A stretch of DNA of 23,038 bases from the IMG/VR virus record IMGVR_UViG_3300044638_002512, positions 1 to 23,038 of that record. One strand, written 5' to 3'. Position 1 is the first letter of the stretch. Each line of letters starts with the position of its first letter. Both the position numbers and the translations under genes were made by a program. Under the pieces are notes generated by a model. That model ran no database searches. It saw nothing but the letters and a program-made list of their open reading frames with translations, and was not told the DNA's origin. This stretch comes from a virus. Shown piece after piece: positions 3,660 through 20,466 of the stretch.

Positions 3660-4694
3660 TCAGTCAGAGTTCGCGTCCGCGATGTAGAGAGCCGAGAGCG
3701 GAGCCGTCAAAACGGTCGCGCTGTTGTCGGTCACGCTACCGCGAACGCGGCGGTTCCACGGATCGTCAAGAGTCTCGACGGTCATGTCCTCATAGGCGAA
3801 GATGGTTGCGCTGCTGAAGGACGGGCCCTCATTGCCAACCAGACCGCCGGGACGGCTCACGAACACCATTCCGGGCGCGCTCTCCGTACCGTAGAAGAAC
3901 CCACGAGTGTTCGCGCCGCCCTTACGGGTGGACACTCGCACCGTGTCATCAACCACCACGCCGCCCAGACCGAAGAGGGTCTGCGGGAGGCCGTAGGCCG
4001 CGAAGGTATCGTCGCCCTTCAAGAACGACAGAGCGGCGGGGTAGTTCTTGACGTAATCACGGACGCCATCGTTGGTCGCCATGATGCGAGCAGTCGTTGG
4101 ATTCACCACCAGCAGAATGTCCTTCGCAGACACAGCGCCAACCGTGTTCTGAACGATCTTTTCGATCGCTGCACGAATGATCTTCTGCACACCATCAGCG
4201 CTGGTGATGTTGGTGCCACTGACCAGATCGCTTGCCTTCGCGAAGTAGTTCGATCCGGTGGTGTAGTTGCCCGCGGTGGTCAACTGCGTAGCCATGCGGA
4301 ACGAACGGTGCGTCATCATCTTCGCAGCCGCAATGCGAGCGTGGCTAGCCACGACATCCCACTGCGCCTGACGAGCAGTCTCCTGCGGGATGTGGAACGA
4401 CGACTGGAAGCGCTGGCAGGTGAACTGCAGCCAGTCAATGTCGCTGTTGATGCCCGTGGGACGATCCTCGCCGAGAGGCCACTGGTAGTCCTGCGTGTTG
4501 ACCACGCGGGCAGTCTCCTCCTCGTCGATGCGAAGGTAATAGCCGCTCATCTGCTGCACGGGCACGATCTGCGCGTACTGCGTGATGGGGAAACGATTGA
4601 CGGCGCGGGTGAACTCAATCTGAATCTGACCCGTTGCCGCCGAGAAAGTTGGGATGAAGGTATTCAGCCCACCGCCAATTCCGACTTCAGCCAT
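3660..4694 (-). CDS. Major capsid protein
   Basis: A 344-aa protein with a good SD (AAGGAG) before its ATG. Its position after protease/scaffold and decoration protein, its length and its composition fit an HK97-fold capsid subunit. Readable features are an N-arm, a strand-rich region with IDEEETARVVNTQDYQWPLG, a helical spine (ARIAAAKMMTHRSFRMATQL), a segment with AKDILLVVNPTTARIM and DYVKNYPAALSFLK, and a P-domain-like strand with LFGLGGVVVDDTVRV. The first residues MAEVGIGGGLNTFIP repeat almost exactly a peptide inside the upstream protease/scaffold protein (residues 182-193 there). The shared peptide may mark the capsid delta domain or a scaffold contact. No coding damage is seen. Confidence 0.88.
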   Translation of the reverse strand: MAEVGIGGGLNTFIPTFSAATGQIQIEFTRAVNRFPITQYAQIVPVQQMSGYYLRIDEEETARVVNTQDYQWPLGEDRPTGINSDIDWLQFTCQRFQSSFHIPQETARQAQWDVVASHARIAAAKMMTHRSFRMATQLTTAGNYTTGSNYFAKASDLVSGTNITSADGVQKIIRAAIEKIVQNTVGAVSAKDILLVVNPTTARIMATNDGVRDYVKNYPAALSFLKGDDTFAAYGLPQTLFGLGGVVVDDTVRVSTRKGGANTRGFFYGTESAPGMVFVSRPGGLVGNEGPSFSSATIFAYEDMTVETLDDPWNRRVRGSVTDNSATVLTAPLSALYIADANSD

Positions 4695-5160: not shown

Positions 5161-5826
5161 TTAGGCCTTCTGGCCCGAATACTTGGCGAAAAGCGACTTG
5201 AACTTCGTCAGGTCGCCAGCGGCCTCATGCACCGCACGAGCGGTAGCGGCCTTGATGTCCATGCTCTCGTGAGCCTCGTCGGTGACGGTGTGCTGCGCAA
5301 CGGTCGGCACGTTGATGGGATTCTTCGCCATCGTCGCCTTCCAAAACGCCATCTTCGCGGTGGGGTTGGCCGTGTCGGCCAGTTCCTCAACCATGCTGTT
5401 GCGGAACTTGCCGCAGCGGTAGCCGTCGCGGATCATCGAATCGACCTCGCGACCGAAACGCTCAAGGCGCAACTGACGCTCAAGTTCCTGCACACGAGCG
5501 AACAGAGCCTTCTCGCTGGTCTTGCCCTTGCTCATCTTTGACTTTCCGCCGTAAGCGGCCTCCATCTCCTCGTCCTCCTCCTCCTCCTCCTCCTCGCCGG
5601 AGTGGGAGCCGATGTCCACGTGGACACCATCCTGCATCTCGTCCTTGTCCTCGGCGGCGTAGGCCATCTCGGCCTCGTCCTCGGCAGCAATCGCAGCCGC
5701 GTCAGCCTCCTCGGCCATCTTGTCCTCGTCCTCGTCAGCAGCGCACTCGTCTGCCGCAGCAGCCGCGAGAGCCTTCTTAGCCTCCTCGGCGTCCTGCTCC
5801 ATCTTCTTCTTCATCTTGCTTGGCAT
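5161..5826 (-). CDS. Possible separate scaffold protein from an internal start
   Basis: Inside the protease/scaffold frame, ATG at 5824-5826 (Met201) is preceded by AGGAAGAAAGCCC, a passable SD. It would give a 221-aa protein starting MPSKMKKKMEQDAEEAKK, which contains the whole acidic coiled-coil scaffold part and no protease. Nested scaffold genes of this type are known in lambda (Nu3 in C) and Mu (Z in I). The start could be used or not; the sequence only shows that it is possible. Confidence 0.4.
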   Translation of the reverse strand: MPSKMKKKMEQDAEEAKKALAAAAADECAADEDEDKMAEEADAAAIAAEDEAEMAYAAEDKDEMQDGVHVDIGSHSGEEEEEEEDEEMEAAYGGKSKMSKGKTSEKALFARVQELERQLRLERFGREVDSMIRDGYRCGKFRNSMVEELADTANPTAKMAFWKATMAKNPINVPTVAQHTVTDEAHESMDIKAATARAVHEAAGDLTKFKSLFAKYSGQKA

Positions 5827-6426
5827 GGGCTTTCTTCCTGTTCCTGACGGGATGAAGGTGTTGAGTCCACCTCCGACCCCCATTTCACCGAACTTTGCCT
5901 TGGAGTCAATAGAAACGCGCACAACTCCCATAGGCCGCTCGAAGACCACCTTCGAGCCGTGCTTACCGAATCGCGTGTCGGGCAGCGGCCTGCGCGGCGT
6001 ATCACGGCCAAGCAGAGCGACTTCCGACAGGTGATTATCCTTCCAAATCTCCGCGCTGCGACGGGGATAGGCGTTCGTCGCCAGCAGCGAGTCGAACGCT
6101 TCCTTCGGCATCTCGACATCGCCGACCACATAGGCCACGCCGTTGCGCTCCTCGTAGCGAACGCTGGTGATGTCGCCGACCGCCTCGGGCCGCGTGGGCT
6201 TGCCGTCCTTCTCGTGTTCGATGACGAGTTTGGGACGGGAGCCGCGCTGGATGAACTTGCCCGTGCGGGAAACGATGTCCTTCACGCGGGCGTTGTCATA
6301 GCCCTGCATGGCCTCGTCCTCGTCCGAGTCGATGGACGGATCGAAGCCCATGAACAGTTCAAGGTTGCGGATGCGAACCTTGCCTTCCTCGGTGTTCTCG
6401 ACAGTGTGGGAGGCTTGCATGGTCAC
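5161..6426 (-). CDS. Head maturation protease fused to scaffold (Mu gpI-like)
   Basis: The 421-aa protein begins with GTG at 6426, overlapping the previous stop (GTGA); an in-frame ATG at 6420 is an alternative. Residues 15-165 look like the gpI-type prohead protease: KLVIEH (H71 as likely catalytic His), a VGDI--VRYEE strand pair, then AYPRRSAEIW (S124 as candidate serine) and LSEVALLGRDTPRRPLPDTR. Residues 182-193 carry the GGGLNTFIP peptide shared with the capsid N-terminus. Residues 200-295 are a highly charged Ala/Glu/Asp helix with a run of glutamates near 279-284; residues 303-421 hold a coiled coil (VQELERQLRLERFGREVDSM) and a helical tail. Protease plus scaffold in one chain is known from Mu, where an internal start also gives scaffold alone. 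Confidence 0.8.
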   Translation of the reverse strand: MTMQASHTVENTEEGKVRIRNLELFMGFDPSIDSDEDEAMQGYDNARVKDIVSRTGKFIQRGSRPKLVIEHEKDGKPTRPEAVGDITSVRYEERNGVAYVVGDVEMPKEAFDSLLATNAYPRRSAEIWKDNHLSEVALLGRDTPRRPLPDTRFGKHGSKVVFERPMGVVRVSIDSKAKFGEMGVGGGLNTFIPSGTGRKPMPSKMKKKMEQDAEEAKKALAAAAADECAADEDEDKMAEEADAAAIAAEDEAEMAYAAEDKDEMQDGVHVDIGSHSGEEEEEEEDEEMEAAYGGKSKMSKGKTSEKALFARVQELERQLRLERFGREVDSMIRDGYRCGKFRNSMVEELADTANPTAKMAFWKATMAKNPINVPTVAQHTVTDEAHESMDIKAATARAVHEAAGDLTKFKSLFAKYSGQKA

Positions 6427-7007
6427 TTGCCGAAGTAGAAGCGATCCTCGACGGCCATCGTGTCCTTCTCGCCGGGGCGAGCGTTCTTGTCTCTGAACTT
6501 GCCGCCAGCCAACTTTAGGTTTGCAATCGCATTTTCAACTTCCGCATCCTTGAATCGTTCCGGATGAGTCATCATTTCATACACCACAAGCCAAGCGATT
6601 AGGTCGGCTTTCTTCGCCTTGTTGCCATACTTCAGCATTGCCTCTTGAAGCATTGTCGCGCTCGCATTGCTCAATGCCATCTTGTCCTTCGCGCCGGGGC
6701 GGGAGAACTTCTTTGCTTCTTCAGCAGCCCGTAAAAGCGAAGCAGGCATGATCTTTTGCACAGCAGGAGCCGAAGTGCGAACCTTTGCATACGCCCGATG
6801 CGCCTGACCAGACTTTGCCAAATCGGCAATTTCGGCGAGGTGCGCGGCAATGGAAGCGGCTTCCCATTCAGCGTTCATTCCATCTTCTGTGCGCTTTCCC
6901 TTCATGTCCTTTGACTTTTGCGTCCACTCCATTGCCAGACGGTTCAGCGCAGCAATGTCCTGCTGACTGAACGGCGGCTGCGCAAACTTTGTCTTCTCAC
7001 TTGCCAT
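6423..7007 (-). CDS. Modular head-region protein with RPG-type linkers (194 aa)
   Basis: A 194-aa basic, helical protein with an excellent SD (GGAGGTGA) and an 11-base overlap with the preceding gene. It reads as two helical modules separated by short linkers: residues 1-100 (starting MASEKTKFAQPPFSQQD), linker FSRPGAKDKMALSN at 101-114, a module with DLIAWLVVYEMMTHPERFKD up to 170, and a final ARPGEKDTMAVEDRFYFGK. The last eight residues EDRFYFGK match the N-terminus of the neighbouring 407-aa protein (EDKFYFGK). I recognise no enzymatic motif. Its place between MuF and the protease suggests an internal head or minor virion protein. The DNA is somewhat less GC-rich than the portal gene. Confidence 0.65.
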   Translation of the reverse strand: MASEKTKFAQPPFSQQDIAALNRLAMEWTQKSKDMKGKRTEDGMNAEWEAASIAAHLAEIADLAKSGQAHRAYAKVRTSAPAVQKIMPASLLRAAEEAKKFSRPGAKDKMALSNASATMLQEAMLKYGNKAKKADLIAWLVVYEMMTHPERFKDAEVENAIANLKLAGGKFRDKNARPGEKDTMAVEDRFYFGK

Positions 7008-8220
7008 TCTTCACCTCCACATTCCAATAGCGTCCGGTGGTAGCCACGGGACTGGTTGCGCTGTAGCCCTTCGACGCGACCCGCCGCCCGAAATCGCGGG
7101 CAAGGTCTGCGTCCTCAAACGAAATCACGAGCGTATCGCTGCCGACCTGCACGGCCCGCCATCCGCCGTCCGGCATCGCCTTCGCCGCGAGCAACTTGCC
7201 GAGCATGGGCGACTTGCTCGCCTCGGCAAACGCGCCGCGCTCAAGGCTGGATGCGTCGAAGGTGTCGGGCTGGCCGGGGCGGGCGAAGCCTTCCCGCATC
7301 AGATAATCCTCAATGTCACCGATAGCCCGGTTTCGCTCACTGACATTCTTGCTTGTGGATGCTGTGCGAATCGCCTTCTGCAAGCCTGCTCCAGCATTGC
7401 CGCCGATTGATTGCGCGGCCCGCATCATTTCCTGCGCGGCCTGCTTCCCTCTCGCAGTCCCAAACTCTTCGTAGAGAACTTGCACATACGCCGCAATGGT
7501 GTCCATGCCGGAAAACTTCTCCTCGCCACCCGCTGCGTTCTTCATCGGCACACAGTTCGGCACGGTCTTGCCGTCCTTCTGCTTCGTGCCGACAGGCTCG
7601 TAGCCCTCCCAACACGCGCCCTCCATGTCAAACCGCTCGGGCTGGCCGGGGCGGGAAGCCTTTAGCCCCTCTGCTGCGTAGGCAATAGCATCTCTCATCG
7701 ACGAGAACATTCGGTGGGTGTTGAACCCCGAAACGCCTTCGATGCTGGCAGTCCAGCCCCATCCTCCAAGGCGCGACCATCCCTTGTTCAAAACTCCGGA
7801 AACTGGCTTTCCGTTGATTGTTGCGGAAAAGTTTCGTTCGTCTTCATTGCTCCCCTTGCCAATCTTGATATCGGAAATCTTCGCAAATCGCTCGGGCTGG
7901 CCGGGGCGGGAATGCGCGTCCACGCGAACGTGCGATATTGCTCCAGAGGTCAAAACAACATACTTGCCACCCTGATAAATCCGCAGATCTCCCTTACTAT
8001 CTACCTTGAACAAGGGCGTGCCCGATGCCTTCCACTTTGCATAGTTCTTGGGCGTAATGACCGTGCTTTTCATCATGTTGGAGAGATACACCGTTTTCCC
8101 GGCTGCAAGTGCTGCTTCGATCTTGTTCAGCACCGTCTGACCAATCGATGCCTGCGATGATTCCTCAAACCGCTCGGGCTGGCCGGACTTGCCGAAGTAG
8201 AACTTGTCTTCTGTGTTCAT
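6997..8220 (-). CDS. Modular head-region protein with four RPGQPERF linkers (407 aa)
   Basis: Four copies of a linker divide this 407-aa protein into modules: SGQPERF at 12-18, SRPGQPERF at 104-112, SRPGQPERF at 189-197 and ARPGQPDTF at 313-321. Module A (19-103) has GKTVYLSNMMKSTVITPKNY; module B (113-188) is strand-rich with WSRLGGWGWTASIEGV; module C (198-312) begins ACWEGYEPVGTKQKDGKTVP and NCVP, a small motif seen in other phage head proteins, then a helical part; module D (322-407) is alpha/beta with GGWRAVQVGSDTLVISFED. The start ATG overlaps the MuF stop (ATGA). Catalytic motifs are not visible. A minor head or internal capsid role is inferred from position. Modules A and B have lower GC than C and D, which suggests they were acquired separately. 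Confidence 0.7.
   Translation of the reverse strand: MNTEDKFYFGKSGQPERFEESSQASIGQTVLNKIEAALAAGKTVYLSNMMKSTVITPKNYAKWKASGTPLFKVDSKGDLRIYQGGKYVVLTSGAISHVRVDAHSRPGQPERFAKISDIKIGKGSNEDERNFSATINGKPVSGVLNKGWSRLGGWGWTASIEGVSGFNTHRMFSSMRDAIAYAAEGLKASRPGQPERFDMEGACWEGYEPVGTKQKDGKTVPNCVPMKNAAGGEEKFSGMDTIAAYVQVLYEEFGTARGKQAAQEMMRAAQSIGGNAGAGLQKAIRTASTSKNVSERNRAIGDIEDYLMREGFARPGQPDTFDASSLERGAFAEASKSPMLGKLLAAKAMPDGGWRAVQVGSDTLVISFEDADLARDFGRRVASKGYSATSPVATTGRYWNVEVKNGK
7265..8186 (-). repeat. Dispersed direct repeat coding for the RPGQPERF linker
   Basis: A near-identical DNA block occurs at 7265-7283, 7633-7656 and 7889-7911, with a shorter version at 8171-8186. The plus-strand core is CTCGGGCTGGCCGGGGCGGG. 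Copies are 230 to 370 bases apart and always in the same reading frame. Related but diverged versions code for RPGAKDKM and RPGEKDTM in the next gene (near 6690 and 6470). Confidence 0.85.
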
Positions 8221-12679: not shown

Positions 12680-13076
12680 CCGTGCCGAGTCTACGGGCGA
12701 TGATGGCCCGCGCCCGCGCGGCTACCTCCGGGCTAATGACCACGCGCTCGGTGGCTTCTCCATCGTCCAGCCGCTCCATCTTGTCGAGTGCAATCGCTGC
12801 GTTGATCTTGTCCCGCGCCATCGCGGCCAGCACTTCGGCGGCTCGTAGGCGGTCGCGTGGCTGTGCTGCGTCGTTTGCAAGGATTCGGGCGCAGATACCC
12901 GGCGCGGCTCGCCAGACGGCTTCCGGTATCTCCCAGCCGTGGTTCACGGCCTTCTGCAACAGGCGCAGGGCCGACCGCTGCCGACTCTCCGGCTCATCCA
13001 GCACGGAAGGGGGCTGGTCTACCGGCGGCGGCTCAATCGGCTCGTTGGGCTTTGGTTTGGCCCGCTTTCTATCCAC
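12663..13076 (-). CDS. Terminase-adjacent protein, possible small terminase subunit
   Basis: This 137-aa protein starts with GTG at 13076 (AAGG 8 bases upstream), overlapping the methyltransferase end by 8 bases. The first 30 residues are Pro-rich and charged (KPKPNEPIEPPPVDQPPSV). The rest is helical: RSALRLLQKAVNHGWEIPEA, PRDRLRAAEVLAAMARDKIN and an ending with VVISPEVAARARAIIARRLG. It lies directly before terL, where small terminase genes usually are, but I see no clear DNA-binding helix-turn-helix and do not recognise the family. A packaging role is inferred from position only. Confidence 0.55.
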   Translation of the reverse strand: MDRKRAKPKPNEPIEPPPVDQPPSVLDEPESRQRSALRLLQKAVNHGWEIPEAVWRAAPGICARILANDAAQPRDRLRAAEVLAAMARDKINAAIALDKMERLDDGEATERVVISPEVAARARAIIARRLGTDETRS

Positions 13077-14241
13077 GCTGCGCCTTCTTGCCCGTTAGGG
13101 TTTCCCACCGCTTCACAATGACATCGCAGTAGGCGGGGCTGATCTCCATGCCGTAGCACTTGCGGCCAAGTTGCTCGGCGGCGATCAACGTCGTGCCCGA
13201 GCCAAGGAACGGATCGTAAGAAAGCCCTTGCGGAGCGGTGCTGTTTCCCATCAAGTATGCAAACATCGTCACGGGCTTCATGGTTGGATGTTCTTCGCTT
13301 CGACTTGGTCTATCGAATCGCAGAAGCGTTGTTTGCTTTCTATCGCTGTACCAACCGTGCGCGGCTCCATCTTTCCAGCCGTACAAACATGGCTCGTGCT
13401 GCCATTGGTAATCCTGTCGCCCCATCACCAGAACATCCTTTGTCCAAATCAAGCACTGCCTAACAGTCTGATCGCAGTCCTTGACCGCACCGCGAAAGTT
13501 GTATCCCTCGCTGTCGGCGTGGAAGATGTAGAAAGATGCACCGGGCTTCATCGCATCGAATGCTGCCTTGAAACAGGCAAACAGGAACTTTCTAAACTCC
13601 ACATCGCCCATGCTGTCGTTTGCAACTTTCAGCGCGTCTTTCGTCTTGCCCGTGTAATCGACGTTGTATGGCGGATCGGTCAGCATCAAATCGGCGCGCT
13701 GTCCGTTCATCAGCCTTTCAACATCCTCTCCCTTCGTGCTGTCTCCGCAGAGCAAGCGATGCTCGCCAAGCAGCCACAGGTCGCCCGGTTTCGTGATGGG
13801 ATCTACCGGAGCCTCCGGCACCTCGTCCTCCTGCACCTCGACCGTGGCTTCGGCCAGCGCAGCGATTTCCTTCTCGGTGAAGCCTGCCGCCCGCGCTAGT
13901 TCTTCGTCCTCGATCTGCAACGCGGCCAACTGCTGCGCGAGCGCGTCATCGTCCCACTCGGCCAGTTCCGCCGTACGGTTGTCGGCGATGGCGTAGGCGG
14001 TCGCCTCGCTGCCCTGCAACGCCGTGCGGACGATGTTGATGTGATCCCAACCCAAAGCCTTCGCGGCCATAACCGTGCCATTACCGGCGATGATGATGCC
14101 CTTGTCGTTGACCAGCACGGGCCGCTGCTGGCCGAACCGGGTCAGGCTCGCCTTGATCGCGTCAAGGTTGTTTGCGGGATGCCGCCGGACGTTGGCCGGG
14201 TCGAGCGTCAAGGTGTCGATCTTCACGCGCTGTGTTTGCAT
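13069..14241 (-). CDS. ParB-like domain / beta-class DNA methyltransferase fusion
   Basis: I take ATG at 14241, giving 390 aa; longer upstream reading lacks sense. Residues 1-95 are a ParB/sulfiredoxin-like domain (VRRHPANNLDAIKASLTRFG, VLVNDKGIIIAGNGTVMAA with the G-N-G patch, AYAIADNRTAEL). Residues 150-390 are an amino-methyltransferase: LLCGDST, catalytic DPPY at 189-192, then a region up to about 325, then SYDPFLGSGTTLIAAEQLGR with the AdoMet-binding FLGSGT and GMEISPAYCDVI. Motif IV before motif I makes it the beta class (N6-adenine or N4-cytosine). Such fusions are common in phages next to terminase and protect phage DNA from host restriction, or act in regulation. No restriction enzyme gene is nearby. 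The ATG lacks a good SD and sits behind a hairpin. The middle part has lower GC. Confidence 0.88.
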   Translation of the reverse strand: MQTQRVKIDTLTLDPANVRRHPANNLDAIKASLTRFGQQRPVLVNDKGIIIAGNGTVMAAKALGWDHINIVRTALQGSEATAYAIADNRTAELAEWDDDALAQQLAALQIEDEELARAAGFTEKEIAALAEATVEVQEDEVPEAPVDPITKPGDLWLLGEHRLLCGDSTKGEDVERLMNGQRADLMLTDPPYNVDYTGKTKDALKVANDSMGDVEFRKFLFACFKAAFDAMKPGASFYIFHADSEGYNFRGAVKDCDQTVRQCLIWTKDVLVMGRQDYQWQHEPCLYGWKDGAAHGWYSDRKQTTLLRFDRPSRSEEHPTMKPVTMFAYLMGNSTAPQGLSYDPFLGSGTTLIAAEQLGRKCYGMEISPAYCDVIVKRWETLTGKKAQRG

Positions 14242-14254
14242 GGCAGAAATGCTA

Positions 14255-14278
14255 CCGCCCCCACGGAAGCAGGGGCGG
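14255..14278 (-). promoter_or_regulatory. Hairpin in front of the methyltransferase start
   Basis: The minus strand holds a 7-bp perfect stem CCGCCCC / GGGGCGG with a 10-base loop, ending 13 bases before the ATG of the methyltransferase. The only purine-rich stretch that could serve as SD is inside the stem. It is the same stem sequence as in the leader of the ERF gene, with another loop. It could lower translation or act as a weak terminator behind the 45-aa gene; there is no U tract. Confidence 0.45.
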
Positions 14279-14302
14279 CGGCACCGAACAATCCTTTGTC
14301 CG

Positions 14303-14440
14303 TCAGTCCTTCTTACCGGGAATCCATCCGGCGATCTTCGACAGCGGGACGAGATGCCCGCCGATGTAGCCGATTGCAAAGGCGGCCACGGCTCCCCACA
14401 CACTTCCGATCAGACTCTCAATGCTCGCAAGCGTCATCAT
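14303..14440 (-). CDS. Small one-TM membrane peptide (45 aa), holin-like candidate
   Basis: A short gene, easily missed, with a strong SD (AAAGGAG) 8 to 9 bases before ATG ATG at 14435-14440. The 45-aa product begins MMTLASIESLIGSVWGAVAA. It has one hydrophobic segment at about 10-33 with several glycines, and ends with GWIPGKKD. It starts 2 bases after the lipoprotein gene. A short hydrophobic protein with a basic tail beside a possible spanin could be a holin or holin regulator, but no endolysin is recognisable in the window. The GWIP-K ending echoes GWIPKPK in the upstream lipoprotein. Confidence 0.7.
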   Translation of the reverse strand: MMTLASIESLIGSVWGAVAAFAIGYIGGHLVPLSKIAGWIPGKKD

Positions 14441-18611: not shown

Positions 18612-18853
18612 TTGCCGTCCTCCTTGAAGCAGTCCCAGCCGCGTTCCTGTGCATACTGCTGCGGATGTTGCACACGCATTCCCGCGCGCTGCCAACCCAC
18701 TGCGAATTCGCACACCTCCCGCCTCGCCTCGTCGCGATCCCGGCGCAGGCTTTCGATCTCATCCGCCGCGACGGTCATTAGGTTCTCGTCTCCCAACTTA
18801 TGCCGAAACTCTGACGCGACTTCTCGCAGCGCGTCGATGATGTCTTGTGTCAT
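18608..18853 (-). CDS. Small helical protein with RGWxCF tail (81 aa)
   Basis: ATG at 18853 overlaps the previous stop (ATGA) and defines an 81-aa protein; the longer upstream frame is a shadow of the previous gene. It begins MTQDIIDALREVASEFRHKL, continues with TVAADEIESLRRDRDEARRE and ends RGWDCFKEDGK. The RDEARREVC and RGWDCF motifs return in the next gene. Function unknown. The type is common in phage early regions, where small helical proteins are often variable between relatives. Confidence 0.65.
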   Translation of the reverse strand: MTQDIIDALREVASEFRHKLGDENLMTVAADEIESLRRDRDEARREVCEFAVGWQRAGMRVQHPQQYAQERGWDCFKEDGK

Positions 18854-19305
18854 GCGAACACTCCTTTCATGTCCATTGCCGCCCACACGACGCCACGCGC
18901 GTATTCCGACCACTCCTCGACCTTGGCCGGTAGCGGCTCGGCTGTGAGCGCACCGATCTTCCGTGCGTAGGCGACGCCTACGGCGATCTCCTCGCGGGTA
19001 GCAAGAAGCAAGATACGCTTCATGTCCTCGCGGTCGCGCCTGACTTGTTCTTCGTTGATGCCCTCGTTGTCCGCCTTGGCTGCGATCTCGTTTCGTCGTC
19101 GGAGTCGCCGCACCTCGCCGACGATTTCCTCGACGGTGCATTGTGCGCGCGCGAGCGTTCGCCGCAGGCTCTTGACCGCTTGCGTCAAGTCTGTTTCGTT
19201 GTAGGGGGCGAGAGCCGCCATCGACTCCTCGTATTTCTTGCTAGACGGCTTTGCCCAAGTGCTGCTTGGGAAATGCTCTATGACGATCTGCGCTGCTGGT
19301 GTCAT
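18850..19305 (-). CDS. Hypothetical helical protein (151 aa)
   Basis: A 151-aa protein that begins inside the end of the DUF1376 gene (ATGA overlap) with a fine SD (GGAGG). The start (MTPAAQIVIEHFPSSTWAKP) is followed by a long helical region (SLRRTLARAQCTVEEIVGEV, RRLRRRNEIAAKADNEGINE, RDREDMKRILLLATREEIAV) and a C-terminal part with YARKIGALTAEPLPAKVEEW. I do not recognise the family. It belongs to the replication operon by spacing and may be an accessory protein of DNA metabolism. Confidence 0.62.
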   Translation of the reverse strand: MTPAAQIVIEHFPSSTWAKPSSKKYEESMAALAPYNETDLTQAVKSLRRTLARAQCTVEEIVGEVRRLRRRNEIAAKADNEGINEEQVRRDREDMKRILLLATREEIAVGVAYARKIGALTAEPLPAKVEEWSEYARGVVWAAMDMKGVFA

Positions 19306-20060
19306 CGTGCCTCCGGTACGGGGTCAAGGTATCGCTGCTGCGAAAGCCAAGTCGCTGGGTGCGGGATGTATTGCTGCTCTTTGTTGCGGTACTGTTCTGC
19401 CATCCGAGCGATGTGCTCTCGGAACACTTCGACGGCGGAATCCATCTCGGGCAATTCCCATTCGTCTGCGTAAGCCCGGATCGCTTGCTCCAGCAATTTC
19501 ATCGCGCGACCCTTGCCGACCTTCCTCGGAAACAGATTCCAAAGCCGCTCTAGCGCACCGTCTGGTATCGGCAACTTCCTCTTTCGATTATCAGACGCAG
19601 GCTCGGCAACGCCGAGCGAATGTGTTTGACCGCTCTCGCTCTCGTTCCCGATCTCGCTATCGGTATCGCTTTCGTTATCGTTATCGTTGGCATCGTTTCG
19701 CATTGCTCCCGCATTGCTCCCGCTATGCCACCGCATTGCCGCCGCATTGCGAGCCTGCTGCCGCTTCCGGTCGCCTGCCGCAAGGCTCCGGGATCGGATC
19801 TCCTCGCACCGGATGTTCCGTAGAAGCCCGTCCGGCCCCTGCGTGAACTTGCGCTTGATGCGATCCCAATGGGCCACCGTTCCGGGAGCGATCTCCTCTA
19901 GCACTTGCGGATCAGGGTTCAAGCCGCCGTTGCTGTATTGCTCACAGAGCAGGAACAAGTAAGCCATCGCGGCATCGGCGGGCCAGCCTCGCGTAGACCA
20001 CGCGAACCGCTGGTAGTAGAACGGCATGAAGCCCAGCGCACCTTCGGGTTGTAAACTCAT
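19302..20060 (-). CDS. DUF1376 replication protein (YdaU-like)
   Basis: Residues 8-90 match DUF1376: GFMPFYYQRFAWSTRGWPAD, a helix with AMAYLFLLCEQYSNGG, and LEEIAPGTVAHWDRIKRKF, a winged-helix-like part. A basic helix (DRKRQQARNAAAMRWHSGSN) and a tract of alternating acidic and polar residues (about 123-143) follow. The C-terminal part (ALERLWNLFPRKVGKGRAMK up to YIPHPATWLSQQRYL) resembles the end domain of phage replication proteins that load helicase. In YdaU/GpO-like genes the middle often holds the replication origin; this gene has five 11-bp repeats exactly there. The start overlaps the stop of a possible 28-aa ORF. Confidence 0.8.
   Translation of the reverse strand: MSLQPEGALGFMPFYYQRFAWSTRGWPADAAMAYLFLLCEQYSNGGLNPDPQVLEEIAPGTVAHWDRIKRKFTQGPDGLLRNIRCEEIRSRSLAAGDRKRQQARNAAAMRWHSGSNAGAMRNDANDNDNESDTDSEIGNESESGQTHSLGVAEPASDNRKRKLPIPDGALERLWNLFPRKVGKGRAMKLLEQAIRAYADEWELPEMDSAVEVFREHIARMAEQYRNKEQQYIPHPATWLSQQRYLDPVPEAR
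19631..19690. repeat. Tandem degenerate hexamer tract, 10 units
   Basis: Ten consecutive 6-base units of the form CGNNNN, e.g. CGCTCT, CGTTCC, CGCTAT, CGTTAT, read on the plus strand. In the DUF1376 frame each unit codes for an acidic and a polar residue (such as Asp-Asn, Glu-Ser), giving a low-complexity tract. Units become richer in A and T towards the iterons. Units vary at the last four positions but keep CG. Confidence 0.7.
19700..19754. repeat. Five 11-bp iterons, candidate replication origin
   Basis: Five contiguous direct repeats read on the plus strand as GCATTGCTCCC, the same again, GCTATGCCACC, GCATTGCCGCC and GCATTGCGAGC. The period of 11 is not a multiple of three, so coding pressure alone does not explain it. 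It lies in the middle of the replication protein gene next to a more AT-rich tract (about 19655-19699). This is the arrangement of lambda ori inside gene O. Binding of the DUF1376 protein is inference. Confidence 0.6.
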
Positions 20061-20143
20061 CGAAGCCTCTCTGCGGCCTGATACGCCGCTATGGGGTTAG
20101 AAGCGGCTCGCCCCACAATGGCGGGCCGTTTCGCTTCCATCAT
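20057..20143 (-). CDS. Possible 28-aa peptide between two replication genes
   Basis: The gap between the 108-aa gene and the DUF1376 gene is filled by a frame of 28 codons. Its first ATG (20141-20143) overlaps the upstream TGA (ATGA), and its TGA (20057-20059) overlaps the ATG of the DUF1376 gene. The peptide begins MMEAKRPAIVGRAASNPIAA and is Ala/Arg-rich. No strong SD is visible. It may be a true small protein or just a coupling ORF that carries ribosomes into the replication gene. A 5-bp stem (GCGGC / GCCGC, 20073-20089) lies in its end. Confidence 0.42.
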   Translation of the reverse strand: MMEAKRPAIVGRAASNPIAAYQAAERLR

Positions 20144-20466
20144 CCCGGATTCCCGAGCGATTGCAAGCGTTCCGTTCCTCGGTCAATCTGCGTCTTTACG
20201 TCATCCAGCCACGCCTGTCTGTCCGTGGGTGTCCGGTAGAAACCATGCGCCGCCTGCTGCATCGCTAACGCGGTCGCAGCCGTACAACCGATCAGTTTGG
20301 AAATGCCTGTCGGCGTTGCGCTAGTGAACGTGTGCAGCGCGTCGAACGCGAGCCGCCTAGCGGCTACCGCGTCCTTCCCAATGCCGCTATTTGGCTGGGG
20401 GAACGCGAAGCCTCGCGCTCGTAGTGCGGCCTCGACAGCGGGGATAACGATGCTTGGTGCGTACAT
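20140..20466 (-). CDS. DnaA-domain-IV-like DNA-binding protein (108 aa)
   Basis: A 108-aa protein one base after the Gp157-like gene. Residues 32-75 (KDAVAARRLAFDALHTFTSA then TPTGISKLIGCTAATALAMQ) follow the pattern of DnaA domain IV, where a basic helix (VxARxxAxxLxxxxT) precedes the helix-turn-helix (ISxLxGxxxxTALxAxxxA). The final helix has DRQAWLDDVKTQIDRG. It would bind DNA without any ATPase part. Its place before the DUF1376 gene and the iterons suggests a role in replication initiation or its control. The similarity is by pattern and not strong, and another HTH family is possible. Confidence 0.55.
   Translation of the reverse strand: MYAPSIVIPAVEAALRARGFAFPQPNSGIGKDAVAARRLAFDALHTFTSATPTGISKLIGCTAATALAMQQAAHGFYRTPTDRQAWLDDVKTQIDRGTERLQSLGNPG

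Follow-up and report, generated by a model that had tools for sequence, protein, structure and literature searches.

Origins of replication located inside genes are already known, and several described systems offer close comparisons. Plasmid iterons measure about 17-22 bp and are, as a rule, situated outside the gene of their initiator. In bacteriophage lambda, the origin carries four copies of iterons that are inverted repeats of about 19 bp, to which dimers of the O protein bind (PMC5043065). In bacteriophage SPP1, two sites of one design are found about 13 kb apart, one of them, oriL, belonging to gene 38 and the other, oriR, lying outside it, and the replisome organizer gp38 works together with a helicase loader and a DnaB-type helicase (PMC6316719).

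The virus contig considered here, a record of 23,038 bases analysed over its whole length and called the window below, carries an array of repeats in its initiator gene that can be set beside these systems. As in SPP1, direct repeats and a proposed AT-rich unwinding element are found inside the initiator gene (PMC6316719) and, as in gene O of lambda, iterons are followed within this gene by an easily melted and strand-asymmetric region (PMC5043065). The design differs from that of SPP1 by its 11-bp iterons, its 7-bp odd-palindrome core and its tandem tract of 5-7 bp units, and the window has a single site. Unlike the inverted repeats of lambda, the units of the window are direct repeats of 11 bp with a 7-bp core and do not qualify as iterons of the lambda type; the initiator is likewise of the DUF1376/Lin1244_N type and not of the O type. 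The resemblance to SPP1 considered here is one of origin design. With the iteron plasmids P1, F, R6K and RK2, the window has in common helically phased repeats, a replicon-specific initiator and an adjacent, proposed AT-rich unwinding region; no match of its initiator to a plasmid Rep family was seen. The evidence presented here indicates that the site is most probably an origin of phage replication, contained within the gene of the initiator that would act on it.

The initiator gene, its iterons and its hexamer tract

The initiator gene occupies positions 19302..20060 on the minus strand and encodes a protein of 252 amino acids, in which a winged-helix-like N-terminal domain, a disordered linker and a helical C-terminal domain follow one another. 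The N-domain (aa 12-95; 19776..20027, minus strand) is the proposed reader of the iterons. It is modelled by AF2 with pLDDT values mostly of 77-91, and the predicted order of its secondary-structure elements, H-H-H-H-E-E-H, by itself suggests a winged-helix-like fold; a profile of this domain returned no significant match among PDB sequences. The linker (aa 107-159; 19584..19742, minus strand), where pLDDT falls below 50, takes in nearly all the iterons and the tract. The C-domain (aa 165-223; 19392..19568, minus strand) is swapped among relatives.

A preliminary description of this DNA had placed a DUF1376 domain in the frame. Taken alone, the match to PF07120 (DUF1376) is weak, with an E-value of 5.5e-4 and a score of 20.7 bits that lies below the Pfam gathering cut-off of 30.1. 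The assignment is nevertheless backed by the relatives of the protein and by its matches to PHROG families of primosomal proteins (phrog_9327, E 1e-13) and of replication initiation proteins (phrog_270 and phrog_9474). Since the alignment covers positions 2-83 of the 86 in the profile and DUF1376 is matched by 49 of the 81 homologues that bear an array, we treat the window protein as a divergent relative of this family and not as a certified member. The gene just upstream (20140-20466), which had been likened to DnaA domain IV, did not sustain this comparison: a Pfam search of its product up to E 10 gave no match.

The five direct repeats previously noticed at 19700-19754 are confirmed, with a spacing of exactly 11 bp on the minus (coding) strand and four perfect cores out of five. 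Counted in the direction of the gene, the perfect core GCAATGC is found at 19744..19750, 19733..19739, 19711..19717 and 19700..19706, the last of these adjoining the tract, and the third repeat carries at 19722..19728 the degenerate core GCATAGC, a variant seen again in many relatives (all on the minus strand). The perfect cores occupy two reading frames, so that the 11-bp period, already suspected to be unfit for codons, is neither a codon nor a protein repeat. A search for the iteron pattern gave one occurrence in the window, whereas 100 dinucleotide shuffles gave none.

Ten 6-bp units (AACGAT AACGAT AACGAA AGCGAT and so forth; 19629..19688, minus strand) make up the proposed DNA unwinding element. 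On the coding strand, this tract is 72% purine and poor in T. Its units do become richer in A+T towards the iterons, as the preliminary description had it: going away from them, the A+T content per unit is 4, 4, 4, 3, 3, 2, 2, 3, 2 and 2. The absolute AT content is moderate, the first 30 bp being 43% GC. Within the gene, stability is lowest over the 40 bp at 19659-19698, which are situated at the junction of iterons and tract, mostly inside the latter; 3% of all 40-mers of the window melt more easily.

Codon choice and arrays in and outside genes

Repeats in a coding sequence may be a by-product of low complexity in the protein, or a minisatellite generated by slippage in a disordered linker and functionless as DNA. 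The linker is indeed predicted to be disordered, the number of hexamers differs among relatives, and slippage is easy in tandem arrays. Such an explanation has to contend with the distribution of cores over two or three frames and with core codons that are fixed next to spacer codons that vary. Synonymous-codon shuffles preserving the protein matched the core count of the window at a frequency of 0.0003, with P about 2e-4 in its relatives. Two of the relatives, L011 and L012, display eight perfect tandem cores spanning all three frames, and the total of nine in L011 was reached in 0 of 20,000 synonymous shuffles. In the RNAAAMRW motif of the window's relatives, the two spacer Ala codons vary at the third position (GCG, GCA or GCC) while the third Ala, located in the core, is always encoded by GCA and the Asn always by AAT. 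The Ala preceding Met in the linker is encoded by GCA in 22 of 22 cases, against 55 of 329 (17%) elsewhere (Fisher 2e-16), and the Asn preceding Ala by AAT, again in 22 of 22 (5e-14). The iteron repeats are a signal at the level of DNA, preserved to the letter in hundreds of related viruses irrespective of frame.

A scan independent of any protein, using the pattern GCAATGC-N4-GCAATGC-N4-GCAWWGC across 2.9 million virus contigs, returned at least 120 stretches. Among those listed, 105 arrays fall within a single cluster of homologous genes and, with few exceptions, are found on the coding strand; the cluster has 81 nonredundant members, 49 of them matching DUF1376 and 24 matching Lin1244_N. 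About a dozen arrays among the matches listed lie outside genes. In contig 3300033388_000375, the array of the initiator gene ends in GCAATGCTAAAAGAAAAGAAAAGAAAA and an intergenic array about 8 kb away ends in GCAATGCTAAAAGAATAGAAAAGAAAAG, so that a single genome contains the module both as coding and as non-coding DNA. One copy in the gene and one further copy recall SPP1, with a distance of about 8 kb instead of ~13 kb. The pair GCAATGC-N4-GCAATGC (GCAATGCNNNNGCAATGC) was looked for in six records of relatives, 15-40 kb long, and no second site was found in any of them. Another contig, L047, which has a DUF1376-like gene, carries two GCAATGC arrays ~340 bp apart (5206-5234 and 5550-5578), a configuration that suggests duplication of the linker or of the gene.

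Linker periodicity in the DUF1376 and Lin1244_N families

For a test extending to the whole family, DUF1376 genes of viruses and bacterial genomes were collected by a search with the N-domain only, blind to the content of the linker, which gave 112 nonredundant genes. The self-similarity of each linker at each lag was compared with synonymous shuffles at P<=0.01, a threshold at which about 1 gene is expected. Lags of 11 and 22 bp were in excess in 36 and 25 of the 112 genes and lags of 7, 14 and 21 bp in 53, 43 and 15, with a weaker excess at 6 bp (19 genes); lags of 10, 13, 16, 17, 19 and 20 bp stayed close to chance. Neither the N-part nor the C-part of these genes gave a 7- or 14-bp signal; the N-part gave a weak 11-bp signal in 11 genes. 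A clear signal at 11, 7 or 6 bp was wanting in 18 of the 112.

The cores of these linkers are odd palindromes that fall into the classes GCANTGC, GTTNAAC and CCANTGG. Repetition of an identical palindrome at a distance of 11, 22 and 33 bp was counted 36, 30 and 15 times, where about 1.5 are expected for each. The 11-bp array precedes the tract in all 13 genes of the set where both are strong. On one strand, the tract has a composition of A.45, C.35, G.10 and T.10, with CCA occurring once per 6 or 7 bp. The 40-bp segment of lowest stability in the gene begins just past the last core in 31 genes out of 48, where about 4 would be expected.

The Lin1244_N genes, gathered by an unbiased search with a close alignment, have linkers with excess periodicity at 11 and 22 bp and at 5 and 10 bp. 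Pairs of GCANTGC at the former spacings are present in 26 of 28 genes and are followed by a (GGAAA)n tract of period 5. Within the sequence coding for the N-domain, most genes of this family (L317-L396) also have a further GCANTGC pair with a spacing of 22 bp, at offsets, counted from the start codon, of about 141 and 163. Simple lag counts revealed no clear 11-bp array in phages Ab105-1phi and Rb1; the design is therefore common and not universal. For a third initiator-like N-domain, that of the L049 type, the phage collection yielded no relative.

The excess periods of 5, 7 and 11 bp do not fit codons, and one core is common to two Pfam families and to sites outside genes. On the combined grounds of synonymous shuffles, linker periodicity and the fixation of core codons, we reject a coding or low-complexity origin of the repeats and regard a slippage product devoid of function as scarcely credible.

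The gene ydaU of the E. coli Rac prophage (DUF1376) belongs to the same family as the initiator gene of the window. Its linker contains GTTCAAAC-like repeats at steps of roughly 11 bp, then an A-rich 6-bp tract (L137, 10505-10640, E. coli K-12). It differs from the window by another core and by imprecise spacing, and a GCANTGC array is absent from it. This repeat region is a candidate site of the Rac origin oriJ, of which no mapped position was found in the literature searched.

Proposed recognition of the iterons, neighbouring genes and probable function of the site

The class of the core follows the N-domain: nearest neighbours agree in core class at 0.96 when they are chosen by identity of the N-domain, at 0.69 when chosen by C-domain and at 0.53 at random. 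In the relatives of the window, the C-domain is replaced and the N-domain, the iterons and the tract are kept. Among loci L002-L015, the C-domain and the overlapping downstream gene differ, while the N-domain and the iterons stay. The tracking of the core class with the N-domain, together with the replacement of the C-domain, fits the winged-helix domain as the part of the protein that would read the iterons.

The next gene (18850..19305, minus strand) overlaps the stop codon of the initiator gene and has homologues downstream of it in relatives. Its product gave no significant Pfam family and is, by position only, a putative helicase loader or partner. In named phages possessing the initiator gene, a DnaC-like loader, a DnaB-like helicase or a primase/helicase is encoded directly downstream.

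As in known in-gene origins, several phased repeats stand inside an initiator gene beside an easily melted and strand-asymmetric region. Iterons spaced by a helical turn, a tract that opens easily, one site only in most of the genomes and a gene of initiator type make an origin of the lambda/SPP1 kind the best reading. The proposal of a candidate origin made from the window has gained support from conservation at the DNA level throughout the family, from the occurrence of the module outside genes, from the covariation of core and winged-helix domain and from the helicase or loader neighbours in relatives. At such an origin, the five 11-bp iterons (core GCANTGC) would present themselves once per helical turn on the same face of the DNA and would be bound by the winged-helix N-domain of the very protein they help to encode. 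The resulting complex would strain and open the adjacent AT-graded, strand-asymmetric tract. Recruitment of the replicative helicase would then fall to the C-domain, probably assisted by the protein that the next gene encodes, and replication would start at the iteron/tract site. The disordered linker would be the stretch of the protein that tolerates being written in origin sequence.

The main rival of the origin reading is an operator, through which the initiator, once bound, would repress or adjust the operon it belongs to, or keep the prophage silent, replication starting elsewhere. Palindromic cores in phased arrays are the usual form of operators, an autoregulatory operator inside the gene would conserve its cores equally well, and the array of L062 lies just 5' of a Lin1244-like gene. 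The arrays are however located ~300-400 bp into the gene, away from promoters, and are directly followed across distant clades by the easily melted, strand-asymmetric tract of 5-7 bp units, which an operator does not easily explain; the copy found outside genes, which has the same tract and is ~8 kb away from the initiator gene, speaks against it as well. We consider an operator improbable. GC skew does not decide between the two: the 23-kb fragment has no extremum at the iteron site, and in three named phages, two of which lack GCANTGC arrays, the minimum of the detrended skew lies 1.4-3.7 kb off the linker, strand switches being a confounding factor.

Phased iterons in plasmids also act as partition and incompatibility sites, and the array might accordingly be another kind of cis site used by the initiator, for the start of packaging, for partition, or for recombination or incompatibility. 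The array is however situated in a gene that belongs to replication-initiation families and has helicase or loader genes, not terminase or partition genes, as neighbours; this position and the melting tract that would be left unexplained make such a role very unlikely.

Taken as origins, the sites would extend well beyond the window. We on balance favour the view that DUF1376 and Lin1244_N form a superfamily of self-addressed initiators with the origin in the linker, built of class-specific 11-bp odd-palindrome iterons (GCANTGC, GTTNAAC, CCANTGG and perhaps GTGCAC) followed by a clade-specific strand-asymmetric tract of 5-, 6- or 7-bp units. The assignment to DUF1376/Lin1244_N, the class-specific iterons and the clade-specific tract appear to be new with respect to the literature searched, chiefly freely accessible published papers; the five of these papers that mention DUF1376 and the two that mention DUF4373, one to three times each, refer to no origin in their titles or abstracts. 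The two families are encoded by very many phages and prophages and are listed as of unknown function or barely annotated. If the view is true, a mechanism could be assigned to these large and poorly defined gene families, a sequence rule would locate origins in prophages and make them readable in thousands of uncultivated viruses, and oriJ of Rac would be predicted inside ydaU. In that case, the origin placed inside a gene, as lambda and SPP1 have it, would represent a design that recurs, with a DNA signal overwriting a disordered linker in all frames, and the core letters, which change along with the DNA-binding domain, would constitute a directly testable recognition code.

Elsewhere in the window, the protein encoded at 6997-8220 (minus strand) consists in part of differing segments separated by about four repeats of a (R/S)PGQPERF-like motif, and the neighbouring gene 6423-7007 contains a stretch related to these repeats. 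A capsid-like protein starts with VGIGGGLNTFIPT and the protein upstream of it contains MGVGGGLNTFIPS (3660-4694 and 5161-6426, minus strand); this shared motif is possibly a maturation cleavage signal. The gene at 13069-14403 (minus strand) encodes a DNA methyltransferase fused to a ParB-like domain.
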